NCBI RefSeq assembly: GCF_034355335.1
Contig: NZ_CP136422.1
Span: 2,514,501 to 2,578,500, forward strand
From: Blautia coccoides
GTDB taxonomy: Bacteria > Bacillota > Clostridia > Lachnospirales > Lachnospiraceae
Direction of reading: 5' to 3'
DNA length: 64,000 nt
Shown: piece after piece, positions 13,811 to 61,350 of the stretch
Numbering within the stretch: the first letter of the stretch is position 1
Layout of the letters: each line of letters opens with the position of its first letter
Translations under genes and position numbers: made by a program
The notes under the pieces: model-generated
The model's input: the letters and a program-made list of their open reading frames with translations, nothing else
What the model was told of the DNA's origin: nothing
Databases searched by the model: none

Positions 13811-13826
13811 AAGTTTCTGGCAGTAT

Positions 13827-17065: not shown

Positions 17066-17105
17066 AAGATCAGATGAAATAAACAGGAAAAGGAGAAGAT
17101 AAAAG

Positions 17106-17787
17106 ATGAACAATACGGAAATCGGAAAAGCAATGGTGATAAAACTGGATCCCGTACTGCCGGAATACCCTACCTTTAAAGAGGGTGTCAGAAGAGCCCC
17201 GAAGAGAGAGCTGACCCTGAACAAAAGGGAGATCAAGCTGGCAGTGGCCAACGCCCTCAGATATGTGCCGGAAGAGCTGCACGAACAGCTCGCACCGGAA
17301 TTTTTAGACGAACTTCTGACAAGAGGACGTATCTACGGATACCGTTTTATGCCGAAGGACAGGATCTACGGAAGACCGATCGATGAATATAAAGGACACT
17401 GTGTGGAAGGAAAAGCATTCCAGGTCATGATCGACAACAACCTGGACCATGATGTGGCCCTGTACCCATATGAACTTGTTACATACGGAGAGACCGGCCA
17501 GGTCTGCCAGAACTGGATGCAGTACCAGTTGATCAAGAGATACTTAGAGGAACTCACAGATGAGCACACCCTGGTGATGATGAGCGGCCATCCCATGGGC
17601 CTGTTCAAATCCCACAAGACCAGCCCGCGTGTCATCGTGACCAACGGCCTGATGGTGGGCATGTTCGATAACCCGGAGGACTGGGCAAAGGCCACAGCTA
17701 TGGGCTGCTCCTCCTATGGACAGATGACAGCCGGAGGCTGGATGTACATCGGACCGCAGGGTATCGTGCACGGAACCTTCAACACCA
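17106..17787 (+). repeat. Long direct repeat, hutU copy 1 versus copy 2
   Basis: These 682 bases match 63319-64000 with a single visible difference (the codon ACG versus GCG at residue 4). Sequence upstream of the ATG is unrelated apart from the ribosome site. The repeat continues past the window end for copy 2, so total length is unknown. Confidence 0.95.
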
Positions 17788-37121: not shown

Positions 37122-38090
37122 ATGAAGGAAATTTACAGAAAAGCAATGGAAGTCTGGGCGGTTCCGGAAGAATTTTATGAGGCCGCAGTTCCCATGTACC
37201 GTGACTATGAGGCTGAGCTTGCCGTTAAGTTCGGAAGCAATCCCGTATCTGAACAGGAAATCTGCAGCCTGCTGAAAGAAAGTGGGAAAGAGGATGTAAG
37301 GAAGCTGCTTTTTGAGAGTTATCAGAGAAATGTAATGGAAAAATGTGAGGGGGACAGCAGCGGCGAAATCTTTTACAGAATGACAGATTTCTATGCCCGT
37401 TATCCGTATTTCGCTCAGTATGAACCGGAAGTGTACGGGGAATTTCCACAGGAGACAGTGGACCGGTTAAATGAATGGGATTTGAAGGTGTATATGGACC
37501 GCACTGCGCAGGCTGCCCTTGATATAGCGGCAGGTAAAGACGTACCCATGCATCAGACACAATATTTGACCCTGCAGGAGTCTTACGACATGATGGACAC
37601 TCTGGGAGAGGAAATCCTGATTCTGCCCTGCAACTGTAAAGCCATGGGCAGATGTACGGAAAAGCCCGTGAATGTATGCATTAATAAGCTGGTAAAGGGA
37701 CCGAACACCCCTTATGACAGAAAATTGGGAACCATTCTCTCTCTGGATGAGACAAAAAAGCTGATCCGTGGGATCAACAAAAAAGGACTGATGCAGTCAG
37801 GGGAAAATAATGTGCTGTGCAACTGTGACGGTGTGTACTGCTATCCCACGAAAATGGCCAGGATACTGGGAACAAGGCTTCATTATCCCACATCCCATTA
37901 TGAGACGCTGTGGGATGAAAGTAAGTGCGTCCAATGCGGGAAATGTACGAAAATCTGTAATTTCGGTGCTTTTTATAAAGACCAAGGGGGAAATGTGAAG
38001 TTTGACCCTGAAAAATGCTGGGGCTGTACCATCTGTTCTGCAAATTGTCCCAAGAGTGCAATTACATTAAAGAAGAGAAGCGGGAAGTAA
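37122..38090 (+). CDS. Cys-rich 4Fe-4S ferredoxin-like protein
   Basis: Protein of 322 residues with a helical N-terminal half and a C-terminal double-cluster ferredoxin: CVQCGKCTKIC and CWGCTICSANCPKSAI. Two more Cys groups, LPCNCKAMGRC with a further C nearby, and LCNCDGVYCYP, could hold another metal centre. I recognise the ferredoxin fold but not the family function. It precedes SARP2 by 29 bases in the same operon, and the MttB/lyase operon follows, so it may deliver electrons in that pathway, for example in activation or reduction. Ribosome site GGGGGAT. Confidence 0.65.
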   Translation: MKEIYRKAMEVWAVPEEFYEAAVPMYRDYEAELAVKFGSNPVSEQEICSLLKESGKEDVRKLLFESYQRNVMEKCEGDSSGEIFYRMTDFYARYPYFAQYEPEVYGEFPQETVDRLNEWDLKVYMDRTAQAALDIAAGKDVPMHQTQYLTLQESYDMMDTLGEEILILPCNCKAMGRCTEKPVNVCINKLVKGPNTPYDRKLGTILSLDETKKLIRGINKKGLMQSGENNVLCNCDGVYCYPTKMARILGTRLHYPTSHYETLWDESKCVQCGKCTKICNFGAFYKDQGGNVKFDPEKCWGCTICSANCPKSAITLKKRSGK

Positions 38091-38119
38091 TCTTACGGAA
38101 AATAGGTAAAGGTGAAAAC

Positions 38120-41107: not shown

Positions 41108-41488
41108 ATGAAGAAAGAAGTATTTACCCCAAAAGGAATGAAGGTATTCGGGGGACCCGTGGCTGAGGCAGTTATTGCAGGGGGATTTGCTTTTGTTTCA
41201 GGACAAATTGCCCTGGATCCTGAGACAGGTGATATTATTCACGGAACGATCCAGGAGGAGACAAGGGCAGCTCTCAGCAATCTGAAGCTGCTGGTGGAGG
41301 AGATGGGAGCCTCTCTGGAGGATGTGGTGAAATGCGATGTGTTCTTATCCACGATGAAAGATTTTGATGCCATGAATGAAATATATGCAGAATTTTTCGG
41401 CACCGAATGTCCGCCGGCCAGATGCGGCGTTGCCCTTGAACTGTGGGGCGGCATGAAGATTGAAGTGGGAGCCATTGTAAAACTGTAG
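41108..41488 (+). CDS. RidA/YjgF-family enamine/imine deaminase
   Basis: Trimeric RidA-type protein of 126 residues that hydrolyses reactive enamines/imines formed by amino-acid lyases and dehydratases. Signatures are FVSGQIALDPETGDI, LSNLKLLVEEMGASLEDVVKCDVFL and the C-terminal CPPARCGVALELWGGMKIEVGA (the substrate-binding Arg sits in PPARCGV). First gene of a long operon; ribosome site AAAGGAG. Presence suggests that an enamine or imine intermediate arises in this pathway. Confidence 0.87.
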   Translation: MKKEVFTPKGMKVFGGPVAEAVIAGGFAFVSGQIALDPETGDIIHGTIQEETRAALSNLKLLVEEMGASLEDVVKCDVFLSTMKDFDAMNEIYAEFFGTECPPARCGVALELWGGMKIEVGAIVKL

Positions 41489-41502
41489 ATGGAGGATGGC
41501 AT

Positions 41503-42894
41503 ATGATAATAAATGAAGTTAAACGATCAGAACTGGAAACAATCCATGAAAAAACTTTATATCTGCTGGAACATGTAGGCGTGGATTTTGAACACACGGA
41601 GCTTCTGGAGCTTTACAGAAAACAGGGAATACGCACAGAGGGAAACCGTGTATATTTTGACAGGAAAACAGTGGAGCGGGCGTTGTCCACAGTACCGCCC
41701 AGCTTTATACTGAAGACACCTTTTGAGGAACTGAAGATCGGAGAAGGAGGACAGGCCATCAGTTCTTCATCGGGAGCAAGGAAAATTCTGAGGGATAATA
41801 ACGTGTATGATCCCACTCCGCAAGACTATGTGAATATCCGTAAACTGGACGCATCCAGCAGCATGATCAATCTGTCCAGCTCACCTCTGACCTATGTTCC
41901 GGCATTCCCAAAAGAGAGGGCAGAGGTTATCAAGGGAGCGCTTACTCTGAAGTATTCCACGCATCCTGTCATCATGTCCTGTTTTGGAAAGACGGATGCA
42001 GAGGAGACCATACAACTGGCCCGTGATTTTTATGATACAGACGAGGGCTATTTTACTATCGGTGTAGGAAATGTCATCTCACCTCTGCGCTATGCAAAGG
42101 ATGATATAGAAGGACAGCTTGCCTACACAAAGAGAAATCTTCCGGTAGTGATCGCCTGCTGTGCGATCCCGGGTATGACCAGTCCGGTGACACTGGGCGG
42201 AACCATTGTCCAGAACAATGCGGAAGTGCTTGCTGGTGTTATTATGACCCAGCTTGTCAATCCGGGGGCACCGGTAGTCTATGGAAACACCACCTATGTC
42301 TCCAACATGAGAAAAGCCATGCCGGTATCCTGGGGCTGTGAGGAGGCACTGTTTATTCAATATGCAAAGGCTATGGCAGATTACTACCACGTGCCCTGCC
42401 GAACCGGAGGCTCCCTGTCCATGGGAAAAGAACTGGATTACCAGAATGGAGCGGAGACGGCCATGTCCCTTATGACCAGTCTTGATGTAAAGGCAGACTT
42501 TATTTTCCACTCCTTCGGGGAGATGGACGGCCTGAATGTCTTCAGCTTTGAGAAATATGTGCTGGACGAACAGATGATGGCTGCCAGAAAGTCTGTGGAG
42601 AGCATTGATATCTTCTCAGAGGAAGATATGGATCTGGAGACCATTCAGGAAGTGGGACCGGGCGGAAATTATCTGGCAGAGGAGGAAACCATCCTTCGTT
42701 ACCGCACGGAAATCTACTATCCGGAGCTTTACAGCCTGGAAAATTATGCGGACTGGGAGAGAAACGGAAGAGTCTCCGTGGAACAAAAGGCAAAAGAAAG
42801 AGTGGAAAAACGCCTGAAAGAATACACGGCGCCGGAGTACACCGAAAAGCAGAGAGCTGTGCTTGAAAAAGCTCTGGAGGGATTTGACCTGTAA
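41503..42894 (+). CDS. MttB-superfamily methyltransferase homologue, non-pyrrolysine (copy 1)
   Basis: TIM-barrel protein of 463 residues in the trimethylamine methyltransferase (MttB) superfamily. Segments typical of the family include ETIHEKTLYLLEHVGVDFEH, SCFGKTDAEETIQLARDFY, CCAIPGMTSPVTLGGTIVQN and GGSLSMGKELDYQNGAET. There is no in-frame TAG, so it lacks pyrrolysine, like MtgB (glycine betaine) and other quaternary-amine demethylases. Those transfer methyl groups to a corrinoid protein, but no corrinoid protein gene lies in this operon. A demethylase for a methylated amino acid is the default guess; a changed reaction is possible. Confidence 0.82.
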   Translation: MIINEVKRSELETIHEKTLYLLEHVGVDFEHTELLELYRKQGIRTEGNRVYFDRKTVERALSTVPPSFILKTPFEELKIGEGGQAISSSSGARKILRDNNVYDPTPQDYVNIRKLDASSSMINLSSSPLTYVPAFPKERAEVIKGALTLKYSTHPVIMSCFGKTDAEETIQLARDFYDTDEGYFTIGVGNVISPLRYAKDDIEGQLAYTKRNLPVVIACCAIPGMTSPVTLGGTIVQNNAEVLAGVIMTQLVNPGAPVVYGNTTYVSNMRKAMPVSWGCEEALFIQYAKAMADYYHVPCRTGGSLSMGKELDYQNGAETAMSLMTSLDVKADFIFHSFGEMDGLNVFSFEKYVLDEQMMAARKSVESIDIFSEEDMDLETIQEVGPGGNYLAEEETILRYRTEIYYPELYSLENYADWERNGRVSVEQKAKERVEKRLKEYTAPEYTEKQRAVLEKALEGFDL

Positions 42895-42962
42895 TATGAG
42901 AACGCATACGGCTGTCTGCCCTGTGCGATAAAGGAAAAGCGAAAGAAGAGGGAGGTTGTTCT

Positions 42963-44384
42963 ATGACCATTATTGATAACGTAGTAGTTGTTGTCTGTTT
43001 CATCGGTATTCTGCTGGTAGGTTATTATTTTTCAAAAACATCACAGGATATGGACAGTTTTTATAAAGCAAACAGGGCTTTGCCCTGGTCTCTGGTAGTC
43101 GGCACATTAATGGCGTCCTGGTATGGTGGTGCAGGTGTTGTGGGTACAGTTGGATATTCCACCACCATGGGTTTTGCCGGATTCTTTATCTGGTCTATCG
43201 GTGCCCATGCAGTGCGCTTTCCCCTTGCTCTGTGGGTGGCACCCAGGATTTCTGTAAAGGCAAAGGGTACAATTCCGGATCTTCTGAGGGTACATTACGG
43301 AAAATTTGCCGCTGTGTTGGGGGCTATAGTCATTGTGATCACCTGTCTTTCCATTGGAGAGATCGCGGCTGTAGGGTATGTAGGTGAAGGTGCCTGGCAT
43401 GCAGACAAGGTGATGGTAGCGGCTATTGTTGTGGCTATCTCCATTGGAGTTACCTGTCTGGGCGGCCTCATGGGCGTAGCTGTTACGGATATGATATTCT
43501 TTTTCCTGATGGTTACCTGTGTGTCCTCCGCGTTTCCAAAGCTGTTTTTTGATGTGGGAGGACTGGAAGGAATCAAGGCAGCTCTGAGCGGCCCGGCTCC
43601 GGAGATGCTCACGGTCTTTGGAGGAATCCCAATTCCGCAGGCTGCAATTTTGATCATTCTCTGTATCAATTTGTATAAGGATCCGGCGTTTTATCAGAGA
43701 TTCGCAGCCGCCAACTCTCCGAAGACAGGCAAAAGAGCCATGCTTTTGTGCTTTTCCATCTGGCTGTCCTTCGATGTAGTGACTATTATGACAGGAACGA
43801 TCATCCGTGTACGTGATACCGCTCTGGCAGTCCAGCCGGAAGTTACCTATGTGGCAACTGTGGTGGAATATCTGCCGGTTGTGGCAAAAGGCCTGTTTAT
43901 TGTAGGAATTCTGGGGGCGATCATCTCAACTTTGGACAGTTATTATCTGATCGGTGGGGAGATCATCTCCAATGATATTATCTACATGCTCCGAGGGGAC
44001 AGAAAACTGAAAGACAGAGTCAGTATCACGATCACAAGAGTGGCTGCTGTTATTTTCGGTATTATCGGCCTCTTTACAGCATTCCGTTTTGACCGTGTGT
44101 ACGATGCGTTTCTGTTTTTGAGCAGTATCAGTATGACCCTATTATTTGTGCCTATTATTGCAGCGCTGATGTTTGACGGCAAAAAGACAAACGTGGCAGG
44201 AATTGCAAGTATGATCGTGGGTGGTGTTACCTGGATCGTATTCCAGTATATATGGCCTGTGACCATATCGGGTGTAACCATTGACCCGGTTCTGATCGGT
44301 CTGCCTCTTTCCTTTGTGGCTTTCCTGATCGGAAACCGTTTCGGAAAAGATTTAAGTGCAGAACGCAGACTGAAAGGATTATAA
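42963..44384 (+). CDS. Sodium:solute symporter (SSS/SLC5 family)
   Basis: Membrane carrier of 473 residues with about 13 helices, LeuT-fold Na+ symporter. The N-terminus has VGYYFSKTSQDMDSFYKANR and ALPWSLVVGTLMASWYGGAG, and the mid-region ISTLDSYYLIGGEIISNDI is typical of SSS proteins, as is the DPAFYQRFAAANSPKTGKRA loop. Likely imports the cluster B substrate. The next small membrane protein may be its partner, as in other SSS systems with a short accessory subunit. Ribosome site GGGAGG. Confidence 0.87.
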   Translation: MTIIDNVVVVVCFIGILLVGYYFSKTSQDMDSFYKANRALPWSLVVGTLMASWYGGAGVVGTVGYSTTMGFAGFFIWSIGAHAVRFPLALWVAPRISVKAKGTIPDLLRVHYGKFAAVLGAIVIVITCLSIGEIAAVGYVGEGAWHADKVMVAAIVVAISIGVTCLGGLMGVAVTDMIFFFLMVTCVSSAFPKLFFDVGGLEGIKAALSGPAPEMLTVFGGIPIPQAAILIILCINLYKDPAFYQRFAAANSPKTGKRAMLLCFSIWLSFDVVTIMTGTIIRVRDTALAVQPEVTYVATVVEYLPVVAKGLFIVGILGAIISTLDSYYLIGGEIISNDIIYMLRGDRKLKDRVSITITRVAAVIFGIIGLFTAFRFDRVYDAFLFLSSISMTLLFVPIIAALMFDGKKTNVAGIASMIVGGVTWIVFQYIWPVTISGVTIDPVLIGLPLSFVAFLIGNRFGKDLSAERRLKGL

Positions 44385-44396
44385 GGAGGAAGCAAT

Positions 44397-44675
44397 ATGA
44401 AGGATCCCAAGGAAAATACAAGTGAACTGACAGAACAGCAAAAATCAGAACTGAAAGTGGAATGGCTGGGTGTGGACGGCGCTCTGGTGCTCCTCTACAT
44501 TGTGCTGGCATGTATCTATGGATATGGACTGCTGAACAGTGTTGATTTTATCATCGGCATTATGGCGCCGGGAATTGCAATCCTTATAACCGTAGGCGTA
44601 TTTTTGAAGTATTGTACAGAGGTTGTCTCCTTTGCCACAGGCAAAAAAGGATCAGATAAGAAAAAAGAAAAATAA
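44397..44675 (+). CDS. Small membrane protein, probable symporter partner
   Basis: Product of 92 residues with two helices, around residues 28-47 (GALVLLYIVLACIYGYGLL) and 50-71 (DFIIGIMAPGIAILITVGVF), and a Lys-rich tail. It follows the SSS gene by 12 bases with AAGGAGG ahead of ATG. Small two-helix subunits often accompany SSS carriers. Family not recognised beyond that. Confidence 0.6.
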   Translation: MKDPKENTSELTEQQKSELKVEWLGVDGALVLLYIVLACIYGYGLLNSVDFIIGIMAPGIAILITVGVFLKYCTEVVSFATGKKGSDKKKEK

Positions 44676-44707
44676 AAAAATAATAAAAGCAGGTAAAGGA
44701 AACAGGT

Positions 44708-44748
44708 ACAGGGCTATGCGGCAGATATGCTGCATAGGACCGCCCTGT
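44708..44748 (+). other. Compound RNA hairpin inside cluster B operon
   Basis: Outer stem ACAGGGC / GCCCTGT encloses inner stem TATGCGGCA / TGCTGCATA with a four-base loop. No T-run follows. It sits in the 154-base gap between transporter and enzyme genes and may set relative mRNA levels. Confidence 0.5.
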
Positions 44749-44829
44749 GCGTGACAAACGGTAAAGATCAGCAGGCGGGCTGAATAACAGACCCCGCTGA
44801 GTGAAGGATTTGTATGGAGGTATAGATTT

Positions 44830-45366
44830 ATGAAGATAGAATGTTTTCCTGTGAAAATGAAAGAAGAGGAAGCTCTCAAAATCGCCGGAGGAGGAAAAAA
44901 CCCTATTATACGGGCATTGTTCGGAAGAAAGAAAATCAACCTCCGTATTATGTATCTGGAAAGCCGTTATATTACTTATGAAATGACATATAAAGACAAT
45001 ATTATCGTCAGGACCATCAAGAAGAAAAAAGAAGAGGACAGGCAGAAGATCCGAGTGATGGTGGAGGCCACCACATGTAGTGCATCTTATGTGGAGGATG
45101 ACATTGCCACAGAAGTAAAAGAGGTGGAAGAAAATGATATCCAGCCCACTTACTATGAAGACAAAAGGCTTACAGACTGCGGTGCTATCATGGCAGGACG
45201 GATGGTCAGACGTCATGTGGGAAGGAATTTAGCGATAAAACCGGTTGAGGAGAGAAAGGTATACCGTCCGTTTTATATAGCCATATATGGAGATATGGTG
45301 GAAGGTACAAAAGCCAGATATATGCCTATAGCGGCAGACGGAAATGTAGTGTGCAGAAACTTTTAA
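44830..45366 (+). CDS. Hypothetical protein of cluster B
   Basis: Soluble-looking, basic protein of 178 residues, starting MKIECFPVKMKEEEAL and ending ADGNVVCRNF. Middle section LRIMYLESRYITYEMTYKDN looks beta-rich; ATTCSASYVEDDIATEV and RLTDCGAIMAGRMVRRHVGR follow. Four Cys are spread through it. No signal or membrane segment. ATG has TGGAGG upstream. I do not recognise the family. Operon position between the symporter and a MIO-less lyase suggests a pathway-specific role. Confidence 0.6.
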   Translation: MKIECFPVKMKEEEALKIAGGGKNPIIRALFGRKKINLRIMYLESRYITYEMTYKDNIIVRTIKKKKEEDRQKIRVMVEATTCSASYVEDDIATEVKEVEENDIQPTYYEDKRLTDCGAIMAGRMVRRHVGRNLAIKPVEERKVYRPFYIAIYGDMVEGTKARYMPIAADGNVVCRNF

Positions 45367-45389
45367 AGGGGAAAAGAGGAAAGAATAAA

Positions 45390-46922
45390 ATGAAAAAGGT
45401 GATATTGGGCAAAAAACTGACCATAGAAGAATTTATGGCGGTGGTGCGGTTTCATGCAGAAGTGGATTTTTCTAATGAATACAGACAGCGTGTGGAGAAA
45501 TCAAGAAAGATCGTAGAGACGTGTGTGGAGGAAGAACGTGTAGTATACGGCACCACTACCGGTTTTGGCGCGCTGGTCACAAAGACCATAGGGAAAGAGG
45601 ATGCGGAGAAATTACAGAGGAATATAATACTGACCCATTCCACCAGTGTCGGGGAGCCATTCAAAGAGGAAGAGGTAAGAGCCATTATCCTGATGGTGCT
45701 GCAGAGCCTTGGCATGGGAGTCAGCGGTGTGCGCATGGAGCTGTTGGAGCGGTACCGGGATTTTTTGAACAAAGATCTGATACCGTATACACCACGGGAA
45801 GGTTCCGTGGGATATCTGTGTGCGGAGGGACATATCGCGGCAGCCTTGATCGGAGAGGGAAGAGCGTATTACCGGGGAGAACTCTCGGACAGCAAAACAG
45901 CACTTCACAGGGCAGGCATGGAACCCTTCGTGCTCAGCTATAAAGAGGGGCTGGCACTTCTGAACGGAACTTCTTCCCCTACAGCCCTGGCTGCTGTTGC
46001 CGTTTATGATCTGCTGAAAGCTGTGGAATCCGCCGACTTAGTGGCTGCCATGTCTTTTGAGATGCTGGGCGGGCTTCTGCGCGCCTATGATGAGAGTGTG
46101 TTAAACTGCCGTCCCCAGAAAGAGCTTCTGGAGACTGCCGACATTATCAAACGCATGCTGCACGGTTCCCAGGTGACAACAAAAGCCGAGGGGACTCATG
46201 TGCAGGACCCCTTATCTCTCAGATGTATCCCGCAGCTTCACGGCGCGGTGAAGAAGACATTAAGGGATGCCTGGGCTGCTGTTGAGGTGGAGATCAACGG
46301 ATGCGCGGACAATCCTATTGTGTGTGGAGCAGCGGATGACCCGCAGGTGTTTTCCAATGGAAATCCAGACGCGTCCTATGTGGGGATCGAGATGGATTCT
46401 GCCTGTATTGCGGCCACAGCGGCGGCGAAAATGTCCGAGCGCAGAAATGTCCGTTTTCTGGATGAAAAACTGTCGCCGTATCCTTATTTCCTGATCAAAA
46501 AGCCAGGGTTGAATTCCGGTCTTATGATACCCCAGTATACACAGGCAGGGCTGCTCAATGATATGAAAATTTTATCCACCCCGGCCTCCGTGGACAGTGT
46601 GACCACCAGTGCCAATCAGGAGGACTATGTATCCATGGGATACAACGCATGCAAAAAAGCTCTCGGTATAGCAGAAAAGTTTGAGTATGTTCTGGCAATC
46701 GAACTGTTCTCCGCATATCAGGCACAGCAGTTTGTGGATCCTTCCCTTACAAGAGGAGAGGGGACAAAAGCGGTACTGGAAGCCATGAAAGACCTGGTTC
46801 CGGTCATGGAGGAGGATATTTACCTGTATCCTTATCTGGAGAAGATCAGGAACTGGATCCATGACGGAGGACTGTTAGAGAGCGCGGGATGCGTGCTGAA
46901 AAGTGAAAAAAACAGAAAATAA
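45390..46922 (+). CDS. MIO-less HAL-superfamily lyase (copy 2 of 3)
   Basis: Aromatic amino acid lyase homologue of 510 residues. After GSVG (138-141) it reads YLCAEGHIAAALI then GEG, three residues shorter than true HAL, and the MIO tripeptide ASG is absent. The catalytic Tyr (VYGTTTGFG), the Asn of LLNGTS, the Arg in VQDPLSLRC and the Glu of SANQEDYVSMG are kept, whereas the HAL Tyr in QDPYSLRC is Leu. So the fold and base machinery persist without the electrophile. I infer elimination from a quaternary ammonium or other activated substrate. ATG 45390 follows AGAGGAAAG. Closest relative in the window is the lyase at 52846-54369, which shares the shortened loop. Confidence 0.75.
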   Translation: MKKVILGKKLTIEEFMAVVRFHAEVDFSNEYRQRVEKSRKIVETCVEEERVVYGTTTGFGALVTKTIGKEDAEKLQRNIILTHSTSVGEPFKEEEVRAIILMVLQSLGMGVSGVRMELLERYRDFLNKDLIPYTPREGSVGYLCAEGHIAAALIGEGRAYYRGELSDSKTALHRAGMEPFVLSYKEGLALLNGTSSPTALAAVAVYDLLKAVESADLVAAMSFEMLGGLLRAYDESVLNCRPQKELLETADIIKRMLHGSQVTTKAEGTHVQDPLSLRCIPQLHGAVKKTLRDAWAAVEVEINGCADNPIVCGAADDPQVFSNGNPDASYVGIEMDSACIAATAAAKMSERRNVRFLDEKLSPYPYFLIKKPGLNSGLMIPQYTQAGLLNDMKILSTPASVDSVTTSANQEDYVSMGYNACKKALGIAEKFEYVLAIELFSAYQAQQFVDPSLTRGEGTKAVLEAMKDLVPVMEEDIYLYPYLEKIRNWIHDGGLLESAGCVLKSEKNRK

Positions 46923-46991
46923 AGTCTGGATCTACGTCATCCGAAAAAGAAGAAAGTACCGGTAAAAAAGAGAAACAGAGGAGGAATTCAA

Positions 46992-48200
46992 ATGCAGCTT
47001 ACACAGCACCAGCAGGATATGCTGGACGGAAAATATGGAAAAGGGACAGCCTATGCCATGAAGATACAGGTGGCGATCGGAGAGTCCTTCGGAGCCGAAA
47101 AAATGGTTCCTATTACGAGAGCACATGTGGCTTTGTCGAATCAGGAGGCAGACCTGTGGTTTGCAGAAAAAATGCTGGCAGGAGGCGCAAAATGCCGTGT
47201 GACCCCAACAGTAAACCCCGGTTTTTGTCTGGAATTTTTCAAGAACAGGGATATGGTGGCACCAGAATATGCGGATCTGATGCAGAGAACACATAATGCC
47301 TACAAAGCACTGGGGGCACAGCTCAGCTATAACTGCACCCCTTATATCGATACCAATGTGCCAAATTACAGGGAGGTGACGGCCTTTTCTGAATCCAGCG
47401 CAACGCCTTACATCAACGCTGTGTGGGGAGCAAGGAGTAACCGGGAGGGTGCCAACAGCGCACTGTGTGCAGCCATTACAGGTTATGTACCGGAATACGG
47501 TCTTTTGCTGGATGAGAACCGGAAAGGGGATATCCTGGTGGACATACAGGCAGACGTAAAAAATGATTTTGACTATCATATCATCGGCATGCTGGGCAAA
47601 AAAATCGGGGAGGGTATTCCTGTCTTTACAGGATTTCCCAAGGAGACCATCACAAAAGAAGCACTGAGAAACCTGGGGGCACAGTTGAATACCTCAGGTG
47701 CCTACGGCATGTATCATATTGTGGGATTCACACCGGAGGCTCCCGATCTGGAGACTGCCTTTGGAGGAAAGAAGCCGAAGAAAACGGTGGTCATCACCAA
47801 TGAGGATAAAAAAGAGATCCTAAAAGAAATATCTCTGGACGGCAGCAGGAAAATTGATTTTGCCATGTTCGGATGCCCTCATTTCACACTGGAGGAAGTA
47901 AAGTATATCGCAGAAAAACTGGAAGGAAAGAAACTGGAAAAAGAAATGTGGATCCTCACCTCCAGCCATGTAAAGGAGATGGCAGTCCGTATGGGATTTG
48001 ATGAGATCATTACCGGCGCAGGCGGGTTTATAGTGCCTGACAGTTGTCCGGACCAGCCCTGCTGGAGACATCTGACAGGGAAAGTGGGAATCACGGAATC
48101 ACCGAAATGTGCCTACTATCCGCAGAGAAGAGGAATCCATTTTGTTATCCGTGATCTGGATACATGTATCGAAGCAGCACTCACCGGGGAGGTAAAATGA
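46992..48200 (+). CDS. Aconitase X catalytic large subunit (pair 1)
   Basis: AcnX (formerly DUF521) large subunit of 402 residues. Family start LTQHQQDMLDGKYGKGTAYAM and conserved Cys motifs YNCTPY, FGCPHFTLEE and PDSCPD are present; these bind the Fe-S or metal centre and substrate. Known AcnX enzymes dehydrate cis-3-hydroxyproline or, in archaea, phosphomevalonate. GAYGMYHIVGFTPEAPDLET and SSATPYINAVWGARSNREG are also family features. The matching small subunit starts one base after the stop. The real substrate here is unknown; a hydroxylated acid downstream of the lyases is a possibility. Confidence 0.83.
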   Translation: MQLTQHQQDMLDGKYGKGTAYAMKIQVAIGESFGAEKMVPITRAHVALSNQEADLWFAEKMLAGGAKCRVTPTVNPGFCLEFFKNRDMVAPEYADLMQRTHNAYKALGAQLSYNCTPYIDTNVPNYREVTAFSESSATPYINAVWGARSNREGANSALCAAITGYVPEYGLLLDENRKGDILVDIQADVKNDFDYHIIGMLGKKIGEGIPVFTGFPKETITKEALRNLGAQLNTSGAYGMYHIVGFTPEAPDLETAFGGKKPKKTVVITNEDKKEILKEISLDGSRKIDFAMFGCPHFTLEEVKYIAEKLEGKKLEKEMWILTSSHVKEMAVRMGFDEIITGAGGFIVPDSCPDQPCWRHLTGKVGITESPKCAYYPQRRGIHFVIRDLDTCIEAALTGEVK

Positions 48201-48201
48201 C

Positions 48202-48627
48202 ATGGGAAAAAAATTTAAATGCCATAAGATTTCTGAGGGACGCGCGGAAGCACAGGCCATTATATCAAAAGATCATATTATGTTCTACCTGATAGACCCG
48301 GCTACGGGAACAGTCATAGAGAAAGCGCATGATCTGGAGGGAAGATCCGTTGCCCATAAGGTGCTCATTTTTCCGGGCGGAAAGGGAAGTTCTGTGGTAC
48401 AGGCAGATGGTCTTTATCAGTTGAACCAGAAGGAAAATTCACCGGCAGCTATGATCATTGAGCACCCGGAAACCGTTCTGGTGTCCAGCGCCATTATCAT
48501 GGAAGTGCCCATGGTGGACCGGGTAGAGCCTGCGTTTTACCAAACCGTAAAAGACGGGGACAGGATCGTAGTGGACGCGGACCGGGAGATCATCGAAATC
48601 CTGGAGGAAACGGAGGAGTGCAAGTGA
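48202..48627 (+). CDS. Aconitase X small (swivel) subunit, pair 1
   Basis: Swivelling small subunit (formerly DUF126) of 141 residues. The signature loop is FPGGKGSSVVQADGLYQL; in the second pair and in most relatives the loop begins PGSKGS, with a Ser thought to be catalytic. Here the first Ser is Gly, so this pair may have altered chemistry. The 3' end overlaps the start of the next large subunit (GTGA). Confidence 0.82.
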   Translation: MGKKFKCHKISEGRAEAQAIISKDHIMFYLIDPATGTVIEKAHDLEGRSVAHKVLIFPGGKGSSVVQADGLYQLNQKENSPAAMIIEHPETVLVSSAIIMEVPMVDRVEPAFYQTVKDGDRIVVDADREIIEILEETEECK

Positions 48628-49925
48628 TTCATTTGACAAAGGAAGAACAGGATATCCTGGACGGAAAAAAGGGAAAGCTCTGTCAGACGGCACTGGAAAA
48701 TATTGTGCGCTATGCGCAGGTGCTGGGGGCGGACAGACTCTGTAAAGTGACAAAGGCCACAGTGTTCTGCGGCAGTCACAATTACCTCAATGTCTGTAAA
48801 AGTAAGGATTTCCATGAAGTATTTTCCAGGATGAACCTGGCCCGTGATGAGAGGATCGTCTTTGACAGTGTGGACAAGGATTGTTATGTGCAGTCCTGTG
48901 TGGCTGCCAGTGACCAGTATGACTACCAGATCTTTGACCAGCCCAAAGAGGAGTTTGACAAGAACAGTTACTATCTGGAGGAATCCAGAAAGGCGGGCGT
49001 TACCATAGCCGGTTCCTGTTCCCCTTATCTGATGGGATGGCTGCCTGTGCGGGGAGAGCATTTTGTGACCACAGAATCAGGTGTTACTATTATGGGCAAT
49101 TCCATCTGGGGAGCATGCTGCAACGCAGATGGAATCGAGGCGGCTTTCTGGTCAGCCATCTGCGGCAGGACGCCATACTGGGGATACCATGTGAAGGAAA
49201 ATCGTTTCGGAACCCATCTGATACACGTGGAAGCAGAGCTTAACTCACCGATCGAATGGGAAGTTTTGGGAAAAGCCATGGGAAAACGACTGCCCCTTAC
49301 CGGATGTACACCGGTTCTTACCGGCAATTTTGAAGGCGTGGACTTTGTAAAGCTGAAAAGCTTTTTTACGGCCCTTGCCATTACCACCAACTGCCGGATG
49401 TGCCACATTGTGGGGATCACCCCGGAGGCCAATACGCAGGAGGAGGCTTTCATGGGACATGAGGTGCAGGAGGAGTTCACATTGACGCAGCAGGACATCA
49501 ATTTAGCTTATGAGGAGCTGTGCAGCAAGGAAGACGGCTCTGTGGATCTTGTCAGTTTGGGCTGTCCTCACTATGATATTCATCAGATCAAGGAAGTTGC
49601 GGATTATATTTGTGGAAAAAAGGTACATGATGGTGTAAGATTTATGGTATGGACCGTGTATCCCATCAAGGCCATGGCTGATTTAAACGGATACACGAAA
49701 ATAATCGAAGATGCAGGGGGAACCATACAGACAAGTACCTGTCCGGTCACCATAGGTGACTGTTTCCTGAAGCACTACAAAGGGCAGGCCTATGACAGCC
49801 TGAAACAGTCCGGAAGCGTGCGCTCAGACGGCTGTGCCGAGCGTGTATATTATACGGACAAATACCGCTGTATCGATGCAGCAGTTTCCGGCGTGTGGAA
49901 GGAGGAGTACAGGTGGAGAAAATAG
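48624..49925 (+). CDS. Aconitase X catalytic large subunit (pair 2)
   Basis: Second AcnX large subunit, about 433 residues. Starts MIHLTKEEQDILDGKKGKLC and has GSCSPYLMGW, LGCPHYDIHQI and TSTCPVT at the three conserved Cys positions, plus HIVGITPEANTQEEAFMG. GTG start at 48624 overlaps the preceding stop and follows GGAGGAG; the first GTG at 48618 lies within that site. Clearly diverged from pair 1, so the two pairs probably treat different substrates or successive steps. Confidence 0.83.
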   Translation: MIHLTKEEQDILDGKKGKLCQTALENIVRYAQVLGADRLCKVTKATVFCGSHNYLNVCKSKDFHEVFSRMNLARDERIVFDSVDKDCYVQSCVAASDQYDYQIFDQPKEEFDKNSYYLEESRKAGVTIAGSCSPYLMGWLPVRGEHFVTTESGVTIMGNSIWGACCNADGIEAAFWSAICGRTPYWGYHVKENRFGTHLIHVEAELNSPIEWEVLGKAMGKRLPLTGCTPVLTGNFEGVDFVKLKSFFTALAITTNCRMCHIVGITPEANTQEEAFMGHEVQEEFTLTQQDINLAYEELCSKEDGSVDLVSLGCPHYDIHQIKEVADYICGKKVHDGVRFMVWTVYPIKAMADLNGYTKIIEDAGGTIQTSTCPVTIGDCFLKHYKGQAYDSLKQSGSVRSDGCAERVYYTDKYRCIDAAVSGVWKEEYRWRK

Positions 49926-50341
49926 TTCTGCAGGGCAGAGGTGTGATACCGGGCATTGTGGAAGGTGAGGCGCTTGTGTGCGCTGACAGCATTACAGGAT
50001 GGGGAGGTATCGACCCAGAGACCGGTGTGATAAAAGACTATGAAAACGTCAACAGAGGAAAATGCATAAAGGACACGATCCTGATCATGCCGGGCAGCAA
50101 GGGCTCCAACGGATGGTCCTGTTATTTCGGAGCTGCCAGGGCAGCCGGTTCTGCGCCTAAGGGATGGGCATTTTCCAAAATAGACAGCAGTGCCGGGGTG
50201 GCAAGCGCGGTTATGCAGATACCGACAGTGGTGGATTTTTCCAAAGAGGAGGATCCCTGTGTGCGCGTGAAGACAGGAGATTTTGTGAGACTTGACGGAA
50301 CAAAGGGCACGCTGGAAATCCTTAAGGCATGTTCGCAGTAA
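49913..50341 (+). CDS. Aconitase X small (swivel) subunit, pair 2
   Basis: Small subunit of 142 residues with the standard loop MPGSKGSNGWSCYFGAARAA and ahead of it GWGGIDPETGVI, both family signatures. GTG start at 49913 follows GGAGGAG and overlaps the end of the large subunit gene. Unlike the small subunit of pair 1 it keeps the PGSKGS serine. Confidence 0.83.
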   Translation: MEKIVLQGRGVIPGIVEGEALVCADSITGWGGIDPETGVIKDYENVNRGKCIKDTILIMPGSKGSNGWSCYFGAARAAGSAPKGWAFSKIDSSAGVASAVMQIPTVVDFSKEEDPCVRVKTGDFVRLDGTKGTLEILKACSQ

Positions 50342-50409
50342 AGAAAAAGTGATAGATTGAAGGCCGGGACCATGGCAGAGCCGGCACAGGAAGAGAGGAA
50401 TAACCTGCT

Positions 50410-51795
50410 ATGCTTGTGAAGAAGATAAAAGATTCAGAAGTGCAGATGATTCATGAGAAGTCTCTGGAGATTCTGGAGAGTGTGGGCGTGAATTTTGAAC
50501 ACCGTGAGATTCTGGAGGTGTTCAAAAAAAGAGGAATCCGTGTGGATGGACAGAGGGTTTATTTTGAGCGCTCCCTGACAGAGGAGTTATTGAGGGGCCT
50601 GAAACCCAGCTTTACCATAGAGACACCTTTTGCCAGCCTGAAAATAGGGGACGGAGGAAAGGCCGTCTCCACTGCCTCAGGTGCCATGACCATATTGAAA
50701 GACGGGGAGATCTGTACTCCCACAGTAAAAGATTATATTGACGGTACCAAGATGGATGAGACCAGCCGTTTTGTAAATCTGTGTTGTGTGCCGGGCATTT
50801 ATGCCTCGGATCTTCCGGACGGCAAGGTAGAATTGTTAAAGACGGTTCTGAGTCTGAAATATTCCCAAAAGCCACTGATCGCGTCCTGTGAGACGGGAAA
50901 AAGCGCGGCGGAATCCATTGAATTTATCAGGGATTTTTACGGAGAGATGGGAGAATATTTCACTATAGGTGTGGAGAATGTCATTTCTCCCCTTCGGTAC
51001 AGCAGGGAGGATGTGGCGGCAACCCTGGCCTATGTTAAGAGAAACCAGCCGGTTGTCATCACCTGCTGCTCTGCGCCGGGGATGACAAGCCCCATCACCG
51101 TAGGAGGGACCGTTGTACAGAACAATGCCGAGGTGCTGGCAGGCATTCTTATGACCCAGGTGGTCAACCCTGGTGTGCCGGTGGTCTACGGCAATGTGAC
51201 ATACAGTGCGGATATGCGCAAGGCTGTTCCCATTTCCTGGGGACCGGAGGTTGCGGTCTTTATGCAGTACGCCAAGGCAATGGCTGATTTTTATGGTATA
51301 CCATCCAGAGTGGGAGGTTCTCTCTCAGGCGCAAAGCAGCTTGACTGGCAGGACGGCGCGGAGACAGCCGTGTCTCTGATGACCACTTTTGACTGTGATA
51401 CGGATTTCATTTTCCATGCTTTTGGTGAGATGGACTGCCTCAATGTGTTCAGCCTGGAAAAATACGTGTTGGACGAGGAACTGCTGGAGGCCAGGTTCTC
51501 CGTGGAAAACTGTGATTATATAACAGAAGAAGCCATTCATATGGACATGATCAGGAGAGTAGGCCCCGGGGGAACTTATATGCTGGAGGATGAGACTTTA
51601 GAGCTGTACCAGAAAGAGCTGTTTCATCCCAAACTGTTTAACAGTGAGATTTACCACAACTGGAAACAGCTCGGCATGCCCTCTGTCATTTTGAAGGCAC
51701 AGGAAATGGTGAGGGAACGTCTGGATGCATACCGCCTGCCGGTATATGATAAACGGCAGACCCAGATGCTGGATGAGCTTCTGGCGATCTTGTAG
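50410..51795 (+). CDS. MttB-superfamily methyltransferase homologue, non-pyrrolysine (copy 2)
   Basis: Close paralogue of the protein at 41503-42894, 461 residues and collinear with it. Shared blocks include ISPLRYSREDVAATLAYVKR, CCSAPGMTSPITVGGTVVQN and GGSLSGAKQLDWQDGAETAV. No stop is read through, so no pyrrolysine. Starts at ATG 50410 with AGAGGAA upstream. A pair of diverged paralogues in one operon suggests two methylated substrates or two N-methyl states. No corrinoid partner is present here either. Confidence 0.82.
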   Translation: MLVKKIKDSEVQMIHEKSLEILESVGVNFEHREILEVFKKRGIRVDGQRVYFERSLTEELLRGLKPSFTIETPFASLKIGDGGKAVSTASGAMTILKDGEICTPTVKDYIDGTKMDETSRFVNLCCVPGIYASDLPDGKVELLKTVLSLKYSQKPLIASCETGKSAAESIEFIRDFYGEMGEYFTIGVENVISPLRYSREDVAATLAYVKRNQPVVITCCSAPGMTSPITVGGTVVQNNAEVLAGILMTQVVNPGVPVVYGNVTYSADMRKAVPISWGPEVAVFMQYAKAMADFYGIPSRVGGSLSGAKQLDWQDGAETAVSLMTTFDCDTDFIFHAFGEMDCLNVFSLEKYVLDEELLEARFSVENCDYITEEAIHMDMIRRVGPGGTYMLEDETLELYQKELFHPKLFNSEIYHNWKQLGMPSVILKAQEMVRERLDAYRLPVYDKRQTQMLDELLAIL

Positions 51796-51809
51796 AGAGG
51801 ATAATATTT

Positions 51810-52838
51810 ATGGTTGTTACAGTAAAAATAGAAGAGATAAAAGAGCTGATGAGAAAAGCTCTGGCCCTCAGAGGGATCACGGGGGAATATGCGGAATTTA
51901 TGATCTCCGATTATCTGGAATCTGAGCTGGAGGGACACAGGACCCATGGCCTGTCAAAGTTTCTGACTGTGGACGCAGGTCTGTCCAGAAGAAGCGGAGA
52001 GATGAAGCTGTTAAAACAAAAGGGCTGCTATGCCCAGGTGGACGGCAGCGGAGAGCTTGGGCATATTGCGGCTCTGTACTCCACCAATCTGGCGATTGCC
52101 GCGGCAAAAGAACACGGCGTGGGTATCACAGCCCTGAAAAATGTGGGGCGTTATTCCAGAATCACCCCCTATGCCAGAAAAATATCACAGGAGGGTCTTG
52201 TGGGAATGATAACCAATAACGGAGGCCCCGCCTGTGTGGCTCCTTTTGGGGGAGCAAGAGCCATGTTTGGAACGAATCCCCTGTGTTTTTCTTTCCCAAG
52301 CGGCAGAGGAAAGCCCTATATCTTTGACTTTGCCACATCCCAGAAGGTTTGGGGGGAGGTGCGCCAGGCAATTGTGGAAAACCGTCCTCTTCCGGATAAC
52401 TGTTTTATTGACGGAGAGGGAAACTTTACAACAGATCCTGAGAAAGCAGAGGCCGGTGTGCCCTTCGGGGGACCAAAAGGTTATGCCCTGTGTTATGCTC
52501 TGGAAGTGATGACAGGCGCTTTTGTGGGAGCGAAAATGGGATATGACGCCAAAGACGAGTATGATCTGGGCTATCTGTTTGTGGCATTTTCTCCGGATAT
52601 GTTTACGACTTTGGAGGCCTTTACAAAAGAGGTGGATGCTCTGGCTGACGATGTCCGCAGCTGTCCGTCTGCAAAACCAGGCGGCCGGGTGTTTGTTCCC
52701 GGTGAGATATTCGGGAGCAGACCGGTAGAGCAGATGCCCCCGGAGGATGCAGAGGTGGAAGAGGATGTTTACCGCAGACTGAAGATCATGAGTGTGTCCC
52801 TGGAAGGGGGATATGAGAATAATAAAAAATTGAATTGA
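51810..52838 (+). CDS. Ldh_2-family (malate/L-sulfolactate type) NAD(P) dehydrogenase
   Basis: Member of the Ldh_2 family of 342 residues, which reduces 2-oxo acids or cyclic imines such as pyrroline-2-carboxylate. Visible are EGHRTHGLSKFL (variant of the SHG motif with the catalytic His), VAPFGGARAMFGTNPLCFSF and PFGGPKGYALCYALEVMTGA (20 residues). The usual His-containing N-x-x-H segment is replaced by NVGRYSRITPYA, with Arg where His is expected. Together with RidA and AcnX it recalls hydroxyproline-type chemistry. Substrate inferred only loosely. Confidence 0.8.
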   Translation: MVVTVKIEEIKELMRKALALRGITGEYAEFMISDYLESELEGHRTHGLSKFLTVDAGLSRRSGEMKLLKQKGCYAQVDGSGELGHIAALYSTNLAIAAAKEHGVGITALKNVGRYSRITPYARKISQEGLVGMITNNGGPACVAPFGGARAMFGTNPLCFSFPSGRGKPYIFDFATSQKVWGEVRQAIVENRPLPDNCFIDGEGNFTTDPEKAEAGVPFGGPKGYALCYALEVMTGAFVGAKMGYDAKDEYDLGYLFVAFSPDMFTTLEAFTKEVDALADDVRSCPSAKPGGRVFVPGEIFGSRPVEQMPPEDAEVEEDVYRRLKIMSVSLEGGYENNKKLN

Positions 52839-52845
52839 GGTATAT

Positions 52846-54369
52846 ATGAAAATTGTTACATTAGGAGGCAGAAATACACTGGAGCAAGTGGCAGCAGTGG
52901 CCAGGTATGGTGCTGTGGTGGAATTTTCTGCTAAATACATAGAAAGAGTCAAAATCTGCAGACAGCATGTGGAGCGTTTCAGCCGTGAGGGAAAAGCTAT
53001 TTACGGTATCACCACGGGTCTGGGTGACAACTGCAGGAAATTTATTCCTGAGGAGGAGCGTGTTAAGATCCAGAGAAACCACATTTTAGCACATACAGTC
53101 TCTGTGGGTGAGCCTCTTGATGAAGAAGGTGTCAGAGCCATGATGTTTGTCATGCTCCTGCATTTTGGCAGCGGTCTTACCGGTTTTCGCCTGGAAACTC
53201 TGGAATTAATAAAAGAACTGCTGAACAGAAAGATCACCCCAAGGGTTCCGAAGCATGGCTCTGTGGGATATATAGGTTTGGAATCACATATTGGTATGGT
53301 GCTTATCGGAGAGGGACAGGCATGGTATGAGGGAGAACTTCTTCCGGGTGCGGAGGCGCTAAAACGCGCGGGAATACAGCCGGCGGTCCTCGGCTCCAAG
53401 GAGGGACTTACCCTTGTATCAGGCACCACATCTGTTACAGCCCTTGCCTGTCTTGCCTATTATGACAGTGTGATACTTTCCGGGACAGCGGACGTGTCCG
53501 GTGCCTTTTCGCTGGAAATGCTCAAAGGTACTTTGAAAGCCATGGACGAAAGGCTGATGCGCGCCAGACCCCACCCGGGCCAGATGCAGACAGCCGAAAA
53601 CATCAGAAACCTTCTGGCAGGGAGCAAAATCGCAGAGAGGTACAGGGATTATCGTGTCCAGGACGCCTTGTCCCTGCGCTGCATTCCACAGCTTCACGGG
53701 GCAGTGAAAAAGACTTTGAAGGACGGTCTTGAGTCCATTGCCATAGAGTTAAATTCTTCGGTGGACAATCCTCTTATTTTTGAAAAAGACGGAGAAGCAG
53801 AAGCTCTCATGGGATGTAATGCGGATGGAACATACCTGGGTATGGCCTCGGATTTTCTCTGCATTGCTCTTGCGGATCTGGTAAAAATGGCGGAACGCCG
53901 TACAGACCGTCTGGTCAACCGCCATCTGAGCGAACTGCCGCCTTTTTTAAATGCCAGTGCTGATTTTAATGACGGCTTGATGATGATACAGTACACGGCA
54001 GCGGGACTTGCGGGGGAGATGCGTCTTCTCTCACATCCTGCGGTGGTAGACAATGTGCCGACCTGTGCCAACCAGGAAGACTATGTAAATATGGGATACA
54101 ATGCCGCCCGAAAAGCCTGTGATGCTGTGAAGACTGCCCAGTACGTCCTTGCCATCGAACTGATCTGTGCTGCGCAGGCAAAAGAATTCTATCCGGAAGG
54201 CGAGTCTTCCCCTGCCATAGAAGCGGTTTATGCAAAAATAAGGGAAGTCATGCCGGCCCTGAAAGAAGATGCCGCGTTGGAGCCATATATAGAAGCGGTG
54301 AGGAATCTTATTCTGAATGGTGAGATACTGGAGGCAGTCCGAAGTGCAGGTGTGAATGTAAAACTGTGA
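52846..54369 (+). CDS. MIO-less HAL-superfamily lyase (copy 3 of 3)
   Basis: Lyase homologue of 507 residues. GSVG (138-141) is followed by YIGLESHIGMVLI then GEG, lacking ASG and three residues shorter than HAL, as in copy 2. Tyr of IYGITTGLG, Arg of VQDALSLRC and Glu of CANQEDYVNMG remain; the Asn of the NGT motif is Ser (LVSGTT), a difference from copy 2. The active sites of copies 2 and 3 therefore differ and they likely act on different substrates, or form a mixed tetramer. Last gene of the operon, seven bases after the dehydrogenase, followed by a terminator. Confidence 0.75.
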   Translation: MKIVTLGGRNTLEQVAAVARYGAVVEFSAKYIERVKICRQHVERFSREGKAIYGITTGLGDNCRKFIPEEERVKIQRNHILAHTVSVGEPLDEEGVRAMMFVMLLHFGSGLTGFRLETLELIKELLNRKITPRVPKHGSVGYIGLESHIGMVLIGEGQAWYEGELLPGAEALKRAGIQPAVLGSKEGLTLVSGTTSVTALACLAYYDSVILSGTADVSGAFSLEMLKGTLKAMDERLMRARPHPGQMQTAENIRNLLAGSKIAERYRDYRVQDALSLRCIPQLHGAVKKTLKDGLESIAIELNSSVDNPLIFEKDGEAEALMGCNADGTYLGMASDFLCIALADLVKMAERRTDRLVNRHLSELPPFLNASADFNDGLMMIQYTAAGLAGEMRLLSHPAVVDNVPTCANQEDYVNMGYNAARKACDAVKTAQYVLAIELICAAQAKEFYPEGESSPAIEAVYAKIREVMPALKEDAALEPYIEAVRNLILNGEILEAVRSAGVNVKL

Positions 54370-57312: not shown

Positions 57313-58032
57313 ATGAATTATTTTGATGTGGCAAACAGCAGACTGCTCTATATACTGGTGGGCATTGGGCTGCTGTACATTTCCGGACTTGTGCTGGTAT
57401 TTATGCGCAAAGCCTGGAGGCGGGCACTGGAACTTGGAATTACCCAAAAGACGATCTTGGAAGTTGTCAAGTCCTCTGCTGTGTTTACCGTAATCCCGTC
57501 CATATCTGTAATTATCGGACTCTTTTCCCTTTCCGCAGTGCTGGGTGTTCCCTGGTCCTGGTTCCGGCTTTCCGTGGTAGGTGCGGTGAGCTATGAACTG
57601 ACAGCAGCGGAAATGGTATCCGATGCCCTGGGGTTTCAGTCAGCAGGTGCTATGGCGGCAGCCAACAATTATGAAGTGTTCGGGGCGATCATGTTCGTAA
57701 CCAGTATATGCATTTTGGCAGGAATGATAACAAATATTTTCTGTGCAAAAAAAATCCAGGTAAGTATGACAAGATACAGGAAAAGCAAGGGAGCCTGGGG
57801 CGCTGTTTTTAATTTTTCGTTTGCCGCAGCTCTTGTTGCCGCCTTCATCCCCTATATTATTCTGGGAGGGCCTGTGGGGATCGTGGTGCTGATCGTCAGT
57901 GCCTGCGTGTCCGCGGTCATGTTCTATATTGTGGGCAAATACAAAATACAGTGGCTTGGCAGCTTTATCATGTCGGCAGCCCTGCTCATGGGCATGGCCG
58001 CTGCTGTCTGCACTGTAAATATTCTGGGATAA
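57313..58032 (+). CDS. DUF5058-like membrane protein, transporter component
   Basis: Membrane protein of 239 residues with about 6-7 helices. N-terminal SRLLYILVGIGLLYISGLVL and the segment SYELTAAEMVSDALGFQSAG match the DUF5058 family as I remember it. It forms an operon with a second membrane protein and an M20 amidohydrolase, so the pair probably imports an N-acylated or peptide-like substrate. Ribosome site GGAGG. Function not established. Confidence 0.6.
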   Translation: MNYFDVANSRLLYILVGIGLLYISGLVLVFMRKAWRRALELGITQKTILEVVKSSAVFTVIPSISVIIGLFSLSAVLGVPWSWFRLSVVGAVSYELTAAEMVSDALGFQSAGAMAAANNYEVFGAIMFVTSICILAGMITNIFCAKKIQVSMTRYRKSKGAWGAVFNFSFAAALVAAFIPYIILGGPVGIVVLIVSACVSAVMFYIVGKYKIQWLGSFIMSAALLMGMAAAVCTVNILG

Positions 58033-58045
58033 AGGAGAGGAAAGA

Positions 58046-58792: not shown

Positions 58793-58803
58793 AGGAGAAA
58801 AAA

Positions 58804-59982: not shown

Positions 59983-60027
59983 TAAACTAAACGTAACGAT
60001 TCAATTAATCATGAAAGGTGGTAGACT

Positions 60028-61338: not shown

Positions 61339-61350
61339 TGGAGATGGAAT

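Follow-up and report, generated by a model that had tools for sequence, protein, structure and literature searches.

What does a bacterium break down with two lyases of the histidine ammonia-lyase (HAL) family, two MttB-superfamily proteins and two aconitase X (AcnX) pairs encoded in one operon? This operon lies at positions 41108-54369 of a 64,000-nucleotide stretch of the Blautia coccoides chromosome (contig NZ_CP136422.1, positions 2,514,501 to 2,578,500; hereafter the window), part of a 6.10 Mb single-contig genome (G000). We put at roughly one in two the probability that the operon serves the catabolism of quaternary-ammonium acids (betaines) and was built by joining two modules, A and B. 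The original prediction, made before any database search, had named the gene families and their order, and a Pfam search confirmed both: all named genes from RidA to the second lyase are on the plus strand, with intergenic gaps of -31 to +154 bp. A 4Fe-4S protein gene (37122) and a BTAD/AAA regulator gene (38015) stand upstream of this set. The features are as follows.

37122..38090, plus strand: 4Fe-4S protein of 322 amino acids, Pfam Fer4 as sole match; likely module B
38015..40975, plus strand: BTAD/AAA/TPR regulator, module A; Pfam BTAD, AAA_16 and TPR; a 64% relative lies directly 5' of RidA in locus L043
41108..41488, plus strand: RidA, module A; PF01042, 98.5 bits; PARCG present, its Arg presumably the active-site Arg
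41503..42894, plus strand: MttB1, non-pyrrolysine MttB superfamily, module B; PF06253, 286.7 bits
42963..44384, plus strand: SSS symporter, module B; PF00474; adjoins MIO-less lyases (see below) in L044, L045, L048 and L009
44397..44675, plus strand: small membrane partner of the symporter, without Pfam match; resembles the tail of longer SSS proteins in L009 and L048
44830..45366, plus strand: 178-amino-acid accessory protein, without Pfam match; 42 relatives; beside SSS in L009, L045, L048 and L141
45351..46922, plus strand: open reading frame of Lyase1, MIO-less HAL-family lyase, module B; translation more likely begins at ATG 45390 (45390..46922)
46992..48200, plus strand: AcnX1 large subunit, module A; PF04412, 426 bits; cluster Cys retained
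48202..48627, plus strand: AcnX1 small subunit; PF01989, 90.8 bits
48618..49925, plus strand: AcnX2 large subunit, module B; PF04412, 308 bits; cluster Cys retained
49895..50341, plus strand: AcnX2 small subunit; PF01989, 66.9 bits
50410..51795, plus strand: MttB2, non-pyrrolysine MttB superfamily, module B; PF06253, 286.9 bits
51810..52838, plus strand: Ldh_2 dehydrogenase, module A; PF02615; best solved match L-sulfolactate dehydrogenase 2x06
52846..54369, plus strand: Lyase2, MIO-less HAL-family lyase, module A; PF00221, 529.7 bits; motif GSVGYIGLESH

Lyase1 and Lyase2 (45% identical) both have the HAL fold, seen in the predicted Lyase1 model, and match the HAL family profile, as do the HAL, PAL and TAL enzymes that depend on the electrophile 4-methylideneimidazole-5-one (MIO). 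Unlike those enzymes, neither carries the MIO-forming Ala-Ser-Gly triad or Tyr280. Where canonical HALs read GS(L/V)GASGDLAPLAH, the equivalents, GSVGYLCAEGH in Lyase1 and GSVGYIGLESH in Lyase2, are three residues shorter, and GSVGYL was common to 120 of 120 Lyase1 relatives among the matches listed (7,999 scored). We aligned 306 distinct lyases, comprising 42 canonical, 246 YxxE, 6 ergothionase-type and 12 outside this pattern. Residues are numbered after P. putida HAL, for which Y280 and F329 appear in PDB titles; the other HAL positions are numbered on the same scheme. Position 280 is Tyr in canonical HALs (42/42), Leu in 242 of the 246 YxxE lyases (Cys in 2, Tyr in 2), Leu in the ergothionase type (6/6), and Leu (10/12) or Phe (2/12) in the lyases outside the pattern. 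Position 330 is His in all 42 canonical sequences, Asp in all 246 YxxE lyases and all 12 outside the pattern, and Glu in the 6 ergothionase-type lyases. Both Lyase1 and Lyase2 have Leu at the Tyr280 equivalent. Because many YxxE rows are near copies from Blautia, they do not represent independent events. Additionally, Tyr155, Glu159, Leu288 and Asp340 of Lyase1 were invariant across 41 aligned sequences and, if the betaine reading holds, would tell such lyases from true HALs.

Ergothionase is ergothioneine trimethylamine-lyase and releases trimethylamine. The electrophile that activates a plain amine appears to be gone from Lyase1 and Lyase2, and by alignment their residue pattern is like that of this trimethylamine-expelling group; the lost electrophile, the change of Tyr280 to Leu and the acid in place of His, as in the ergothionase group, suggest that the two enzymes expel a quaternary amine. 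With BCCT or SSS carriers adjoining, the earlier proposal that these MIO-less lyases act on quaternary amines is well supported as a predicted lyase step. The Treponema denticola ergothionase (PDB 6s7j and 6s7q) likewise has the HAL fold and, according to the available part of PMC13405746, no MIO, and its group has Leu at 280 and an acid at 330. It differs in its motif (GSxGExD against GSVGY(L/I)xxE), in Glu330 against Asp330 and in its tree branch, and Lyase1 and Lyase2 both score 178 bits to 6s7j but 318 and 332 bits to a canonical HAL. In a quick tree, 40 YxxE rows formed one branch (SH-aLRT 100) separate from 6 ergothionase-type rows, which suggests that the two MIO-less groups may have lost MIO independently; a single origin of both groups was not rejected by the approximately unbiased (AU) test (p 0.399, 38 of 72 rows).

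A third MIO-less lyase is encoded in the window at 9585-11078. It is of the ergothionase type, with 514 bits to 6s7j and the GSxGExD motif, and belongs to a cluster at 6462-19148 that also holds molybdopterin dehydrogenase subunits, BCCT, HutD, a BTAD/AAA/TPR regulator and urocanase, likely an ergothioneine or hercynine route. The fourth MIO-less lyase of the genome, also of the ergothionase type, lies in L113 (1427001-1447000) with BCCT and an ornithine-cyclodeaminase-family gene.

Neighbourhoods were compared with those of canonical HALs within 8 kb of each gene, and a carrier was counted if it gave a BLAST hit of at least 80 bits to the BCCT or SSS of the window, which leaves any other type of carrier next to a canonical HAL uncounted. 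BCCT or SSS carriers were found beside 14/20 YxxE, 5/6 ergothionase-type and 0/30 canonical HAL genes. The corresponding counts were 9/20, 1/6 and 0/30 for AcnX, 7/20, 0/6 and 0/30 for MttB, and 4/20, 1/6 and 17/30 for urocanase. Counted per locus, with L007, a near copy of the window, dropped, carriers occurred at 10 of 14 YxxE loci against 0 of 30 canonical (p 4e-7) and AcnX at 6 of 14 against 0 of 30 (p 4e-4); with the control cut to 23 canonical genes having at least 5 kb on both sides, the p values were 2.9e-6 and 1.3e-3, respectively. Because several loci share a genome, these p values are a guide at most. The 30 canonical genes (20 from the best phylum-sample matches and 10 from other searches) are not a random draw, canonical loci with a 1.5 kb flank, including two of this genome, were left out, as was L011 (Oscillibacter, a 68% partial match with no partner), and L008 and L043 are one contig. 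Of the carriers next to MIO-less lyases or AcnX2, nine were checked further, and every one matched PF02028 or PF00474; the L050 carrier is a weak partial match of 88 bits at a contig end. The co-occurrence of MIO-less HAL, AcnX and MttB, for which a genome search had been proposed, recurs in other genera, and AcnX and MttB are seen at 0 of 30 canonical loci.

These counts bear on one alternative, that the lyases are ordinary ammonia-lyases whose neighbours adjoin by chance. HAL-family genes are indeed common, with Lyase1 matches in 127 of 398 genomes of the phylum sample (29 inspected loci besides the window's own were all canonical), and single partners differ among loci. However, the triad and Tyr280 are lost, the gene sets recur across genera, and the canonical control has no AcnX, MttB or BCCT/SSS carrier nearby, which leaves this explanation very improbable.

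The same neighbourhoods, and the residues of the pocket, bear on a second alternative, in which the lyases act on hercynine or a closely related compound and yield urocanate or an acid like it, which urocanase and the adjoining hut enzymes convert to glutamate, with AcnX and MttB acting on other substrates. In HAL, His83 and Glu414 bind imidazole, and their equivalents are retained in 245 of 246 YxxE lyases. Moreover, urocanase lies within 8 kb of 4 of the 20 YxxE genes (L047 and L051), and urocanase, HutI-like and FTCD genes stand just beyond the window end. However, 16 of the 20 YxxE genes have no urocanase nearby, such substrates are probably handled already by the ergothionase-type lyase of the window, which has a BCCT and a urocanase beside it, and AcnX, Ldh_2 and the AcnX-lyase fusion described below are left unexplained, so that we regard this histidine-betaine route as unlikely.

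Meanwhile, the betaine reading draws its two modules from a relative in the same genus, G538, in which the module genes occur on two separate contigs. One contig (L043) carries the regulator, RidA, AcnX1 large and small subunits, Ldh_2 and Lyase2, after which come an NADH-type flavoprotein and an iron hydrogenase; the other (L044) carries SSS, its small partner, the 4Fe-4S protein, MttB1, Lyase1, AcnX2 large and small subunits and MttB2. Because of this separation, we read the paired enzymes as two joined modules, with regulator, RidA, AcnX1, Ldh_2 and Lyase2 as module A and SSS, Fe-S protein, MttB1, Lyase1, AcnX2 and MttB2 as module B, which probably serve two related betaines. The pairs noticed at the outset are therefore present, but as two separable modules rather than two copies of one step. 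Recent duplication as the source of the pairs was ruled out by these separate modules together with identities of 26-54% (MttB1/MttB2 54%, AcnX large subunits 26%).

Comparable sets occur in other genera, so the gene links are not peculiar to Blautia. One stretch of G501 holds a YxxE lyase, two 4Fe-4S proteins, AcnX2, MttB2, a DUF401 carrier, an aminotransferase, SSS and the 178-amino-acid protein. G331 has AcnX2, AcnX1 and Lyase1 beside a regulator and urocanase at L047, where the contig ends, and RidA, MttB2 and Ldh_2 on another contig (L142). G155 groups BCCT, a YxxE lyase, MttB and a 4Fe-4S protein without AcnX. Acidaminococcus has Lyase2, SSS, the 178-amino-acid protein, a 3-hydroxyacyl-type dehydrogenase, AcnX large and a 646-amino-acid protein that unites AcnX small and an ergothionase-type lyase (531 bits to 6s7j); this fusion links AcnX with the lyase step. 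In the family sample, Lyase2 had matches in 18 of 397 genomes, canonical HALs included, and YxxE lyases were seen in eight of those 18 (G000, G223, G538, G221, G331, G484, G501 and G515). In Blautia parvula, the closest named relative retrieved, Lyase2 is 90% identical and the gene order is the same over the portion compared.

From these associations, a betaine route can be proposed. Import would be carried out by the SSS symporter, judging from its family and neighbourhood. Lyase1 or Lyase2 would then take the beta proton and expel the already quaternary amine, yielding an alpha,beta-unsaturated acid, with trimethylamine as the leaving group or, if the substrate is cyclic, a tethered dimethylamine. 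An AcnX heterodimer with a [4Fe-4S] cluster may add water to the unsaturated acid, and Ldh_2, or the 3-hydroxyacyl-type dehydrogenase in Acidaminococcus, may oxidise the resulting hydroxy acid, while RidA could clear enamine or imine by-products. An oxidative Ldh_2 fits because the NADH-type flavoprotein and iron hydrogenase follow module A in G538. MttB1 and MttB2, as their family suggests, would take methyl groups off a quaternary amine and load them onto a corrinoid protein whose gene lies elsewhere in the genome. In its fullest form, to which we give slightly less than an even chance, an MIO-free lyase clade apart from ergothionase would cut the amine from the betaine and pass the enoate to AcnX hydratases of a type with no assigned function, the paired MttB proteins would feed acetogenesis, and Blautia would be a trimethylamine source. 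The original prediction had proposed catabolism of N-methylated amino acids; a betaine-type substrate is probably right, whereas the direction of AcnX, the role of MttB and the substrate are what we infer.

Both AcnX large subunits retain equivalents of the three cluster Cys (110, 283 and 342 of TkAcnX), Glu129 and Lys361, and the Tyr365 equivalent is lost in AcnX2. The Asp203 equivalent is absent, being a gap in AcnX1 large and Phe in AcnX2 large in the alignment to TkAcnX. Both the roles of the cluster Cys in type IIb and the binding of the ring nitrogen by Asp203 in cis-3-hydroxyproline dehydratase are given in the available part of PMC8184944. The phosphate loop of type IIb (Gly48-Val49-Ser50, Asn53) is shortened in AcnX1, and in AcnX2 Ser50 is retained in a weak alignment only. 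AcnX1 and AcnX2 are like known AcnX enzymes (cis-3-hydroxyproline dehydratase, types I/IIa; phosphomevalonate dehydratase, type IIb) in having large and swivel subunits, IIb-type cluster Cys and the Glu129 and Lys361 equivalents, but they lack Asp203 and appear to fit neither known activity. According to the structure authors in the same portion of PMC8184944, the landmark residues of both activities are missing from types IIc-f. Assigning a substrate from the AcnX residues failed, since the literature landmarks, in that text, cover proline and phosphomevalonate activities only. Proline betaine and carnitine were also considered as substrates, and no result here points to proline betaine. The pent-2-enoate expected from ring opening of proline betaine carries its charge at C5 and resembles the phosphomevalonate product in shape.

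The direction of AcnX had been taken as dehydration. The part of PMC5144071 available to us describes proline-type AcnX as a dehydratase, but the three-Cys enzyme of Aeropyrum stands 87.7% towards the hydroxy acid at equilibrium (PMC10040528, available part) and the proline-type Asp is absent from both window enzymes. Because the Aeropyrum enzyme favours the hydroxy acid, we prefer hydration, and AcnX1 and AcnX2 probably hydrate the lyase product.

Several observations weigh against the betaine reading. No corrinoid gene lies within the operon. Proline-type AcnX is reported as irreversible, in the accessible text of PMC5144071. Many YxxE lyases lack an adjoining AcnX or MttB (present beside 9/20 and 7/20), L046 has a YxxE lyase without any partner, and so does the uncounted partial match L011. 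AcnX1-type genes (71-79% identical) occur without a lyase in five loci, four of them with TRAP carriers (L060, L136, L138 and L139), so the substrate of AcnX1 may be an acid that does not arise from a betaine; LarA-like proteins accompany them in L060 and L137 and xanthine-dehydrogenase-like subunits in L139. In G484, an AcnX1-type locus lies 12 kb from a YxxE lyase, apparently in a separate operon. In addition, a second cluster of the genome at 4.79-4.81 Mb has AcnX2, two MttB genes, a corrinoid protein, BCCT, a 2-oxoacid:ferredoxin oxidoreductase, an ADP-forming acyl-CoA synthetase and RidA, and no lyase, a content that suits an AcnX dehydratase role.

This second cluster also speaks for a third alternative, in which MttB demethylates a beta-hydroxylated betaine, AcnX dehydrates the resulting amino acid with its beta-hydroxyl group, the enamine or imine is either hydrolysed by RidA or reduced by Ldh_2, and the 2-oxo acid is fermented, with the lyases serving a side substrate or another step. 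The oxidoreductase and synthetase of the cluster agree with such a fate, and RidA stands beside MttB there, in the window and in L142. Of seven AcnX2-type genes (one of them, G971 at 5.55 Mb, typed by score alone), six lie within 5 kb of MttB and the other is on a 19-kb contig that lacks MttB, and the chemistry is known for proline-type AcnX (available part of PMC5144071). However, the dehydratase route accounts neither for the AcnX-lyase fusion of Acidaminococcus nor for module A of G538, where a lyase occurs without MttB, and both AcnX proteins lack the Asp to which the proline nitrogen binds. We consider it possible but doubtful, and keep hydration of a lyase product as the preferred reading.

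With regard to methyl transfer, six MttB genes, all free of in-frame stops, and five corrinoid-domain genes are present in the genome. The closest solved structure to MttB1 is glycine betaine methyltransferase 9yce (228 bits). Among 13 other genomes with such lyases, 5 have MttB, so MttB is not needed wherever such lyases occur. Like the quaternary-amine systems MtgB, MtpB, MtcB and MtyB, MttB1 and MttB2 belong to the superfamily without a pyrrolysine codon, with the corrinoid protein encoded elsewhere, as MttB and corrinoid protein are in E. limosum (PMC8604678, in the part available); unlike those systems, they share an operon with MIO-less lyases and AcnX.

Gut ergothioneine catabolism, as Zhou and Feng reportedly described it in 2025, is said to have an MIO-less lyase open a betaine route in gut anaerobes. 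Its description in the accessible part of PMC13405746 includes neither AcnX nor MttB, and no paper joining AcnX with MIO-less lyases or betaines was found in the open-licence literature searched. The idea of an undescribed system holds to that extent, but the component families are all known, and the novelty is their combination. To the original prediction our analysis adds the two modules, the ergothionase-like residue pattern, the controlled carrier association, the AcnX-lyase fusion and the third lyase in the window. If the betaine reading is right, it would also give a testable function to an AcnX type fitting neither known activity.

Gut trimethylamine (TMA) is tracked through a short gene list. 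A gut survey places Blautia among exclusively non-TMA-producing genera (PMC10653893, available part), and a 2026 paper, in the part available, calls ergothionase rare after a BLAST search returning ammonia-lyases only (PMC13405746). MIO-less lyases annotated as histidine ammonia-lyase would slip past both, and, should the betaine reading hold, Blautia would be a trimethylamine source, contrary to its current listing.

Among the smaller genes, the 178-amino-acid protein has a confident predicted structure and no clear PDB fold match, and relatives of the 4Fe-4S protein adjoin MIO-less lyases in L044, L052 (two copies) and L102. Read from ATG 45390, Lyase1 has 510 amino acids, matching the length of the proteins P0009 and P0010. 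The BTAD/AAA/TPR regulators at 13825-16923 and 38015-40975 are related to each other; their relatives adjoin ergothionase-type clusters (L103/L106 and L104), a canonical HAL (L115) and an AcnX1 cluster (L137), neighbours that hint at related ligands for both regulators.

Just beyond the window, L107 (2578501-2590000) carries urocanase, a HutI-like amidohydrolase, FTCD genes, a citrate-lyase-like gene and glutamate mutase parts, and its urocanase is 99.8% identical over 452 amino acids to the window urocanase at 17106. Between the operon and these hut genes, 57313-63141 encodes a DUF5058 protein, an M20 peptidase, a 436-amino-acid protein and a prolyl oligopeptidase. An IS110-type transposase lies on the minus strand at 34587-35876; elsewhere in the genome, one relative (75%) neighbours an MttB gene in L109 and another (26%) separates AcnX2 from BCCT in L061.

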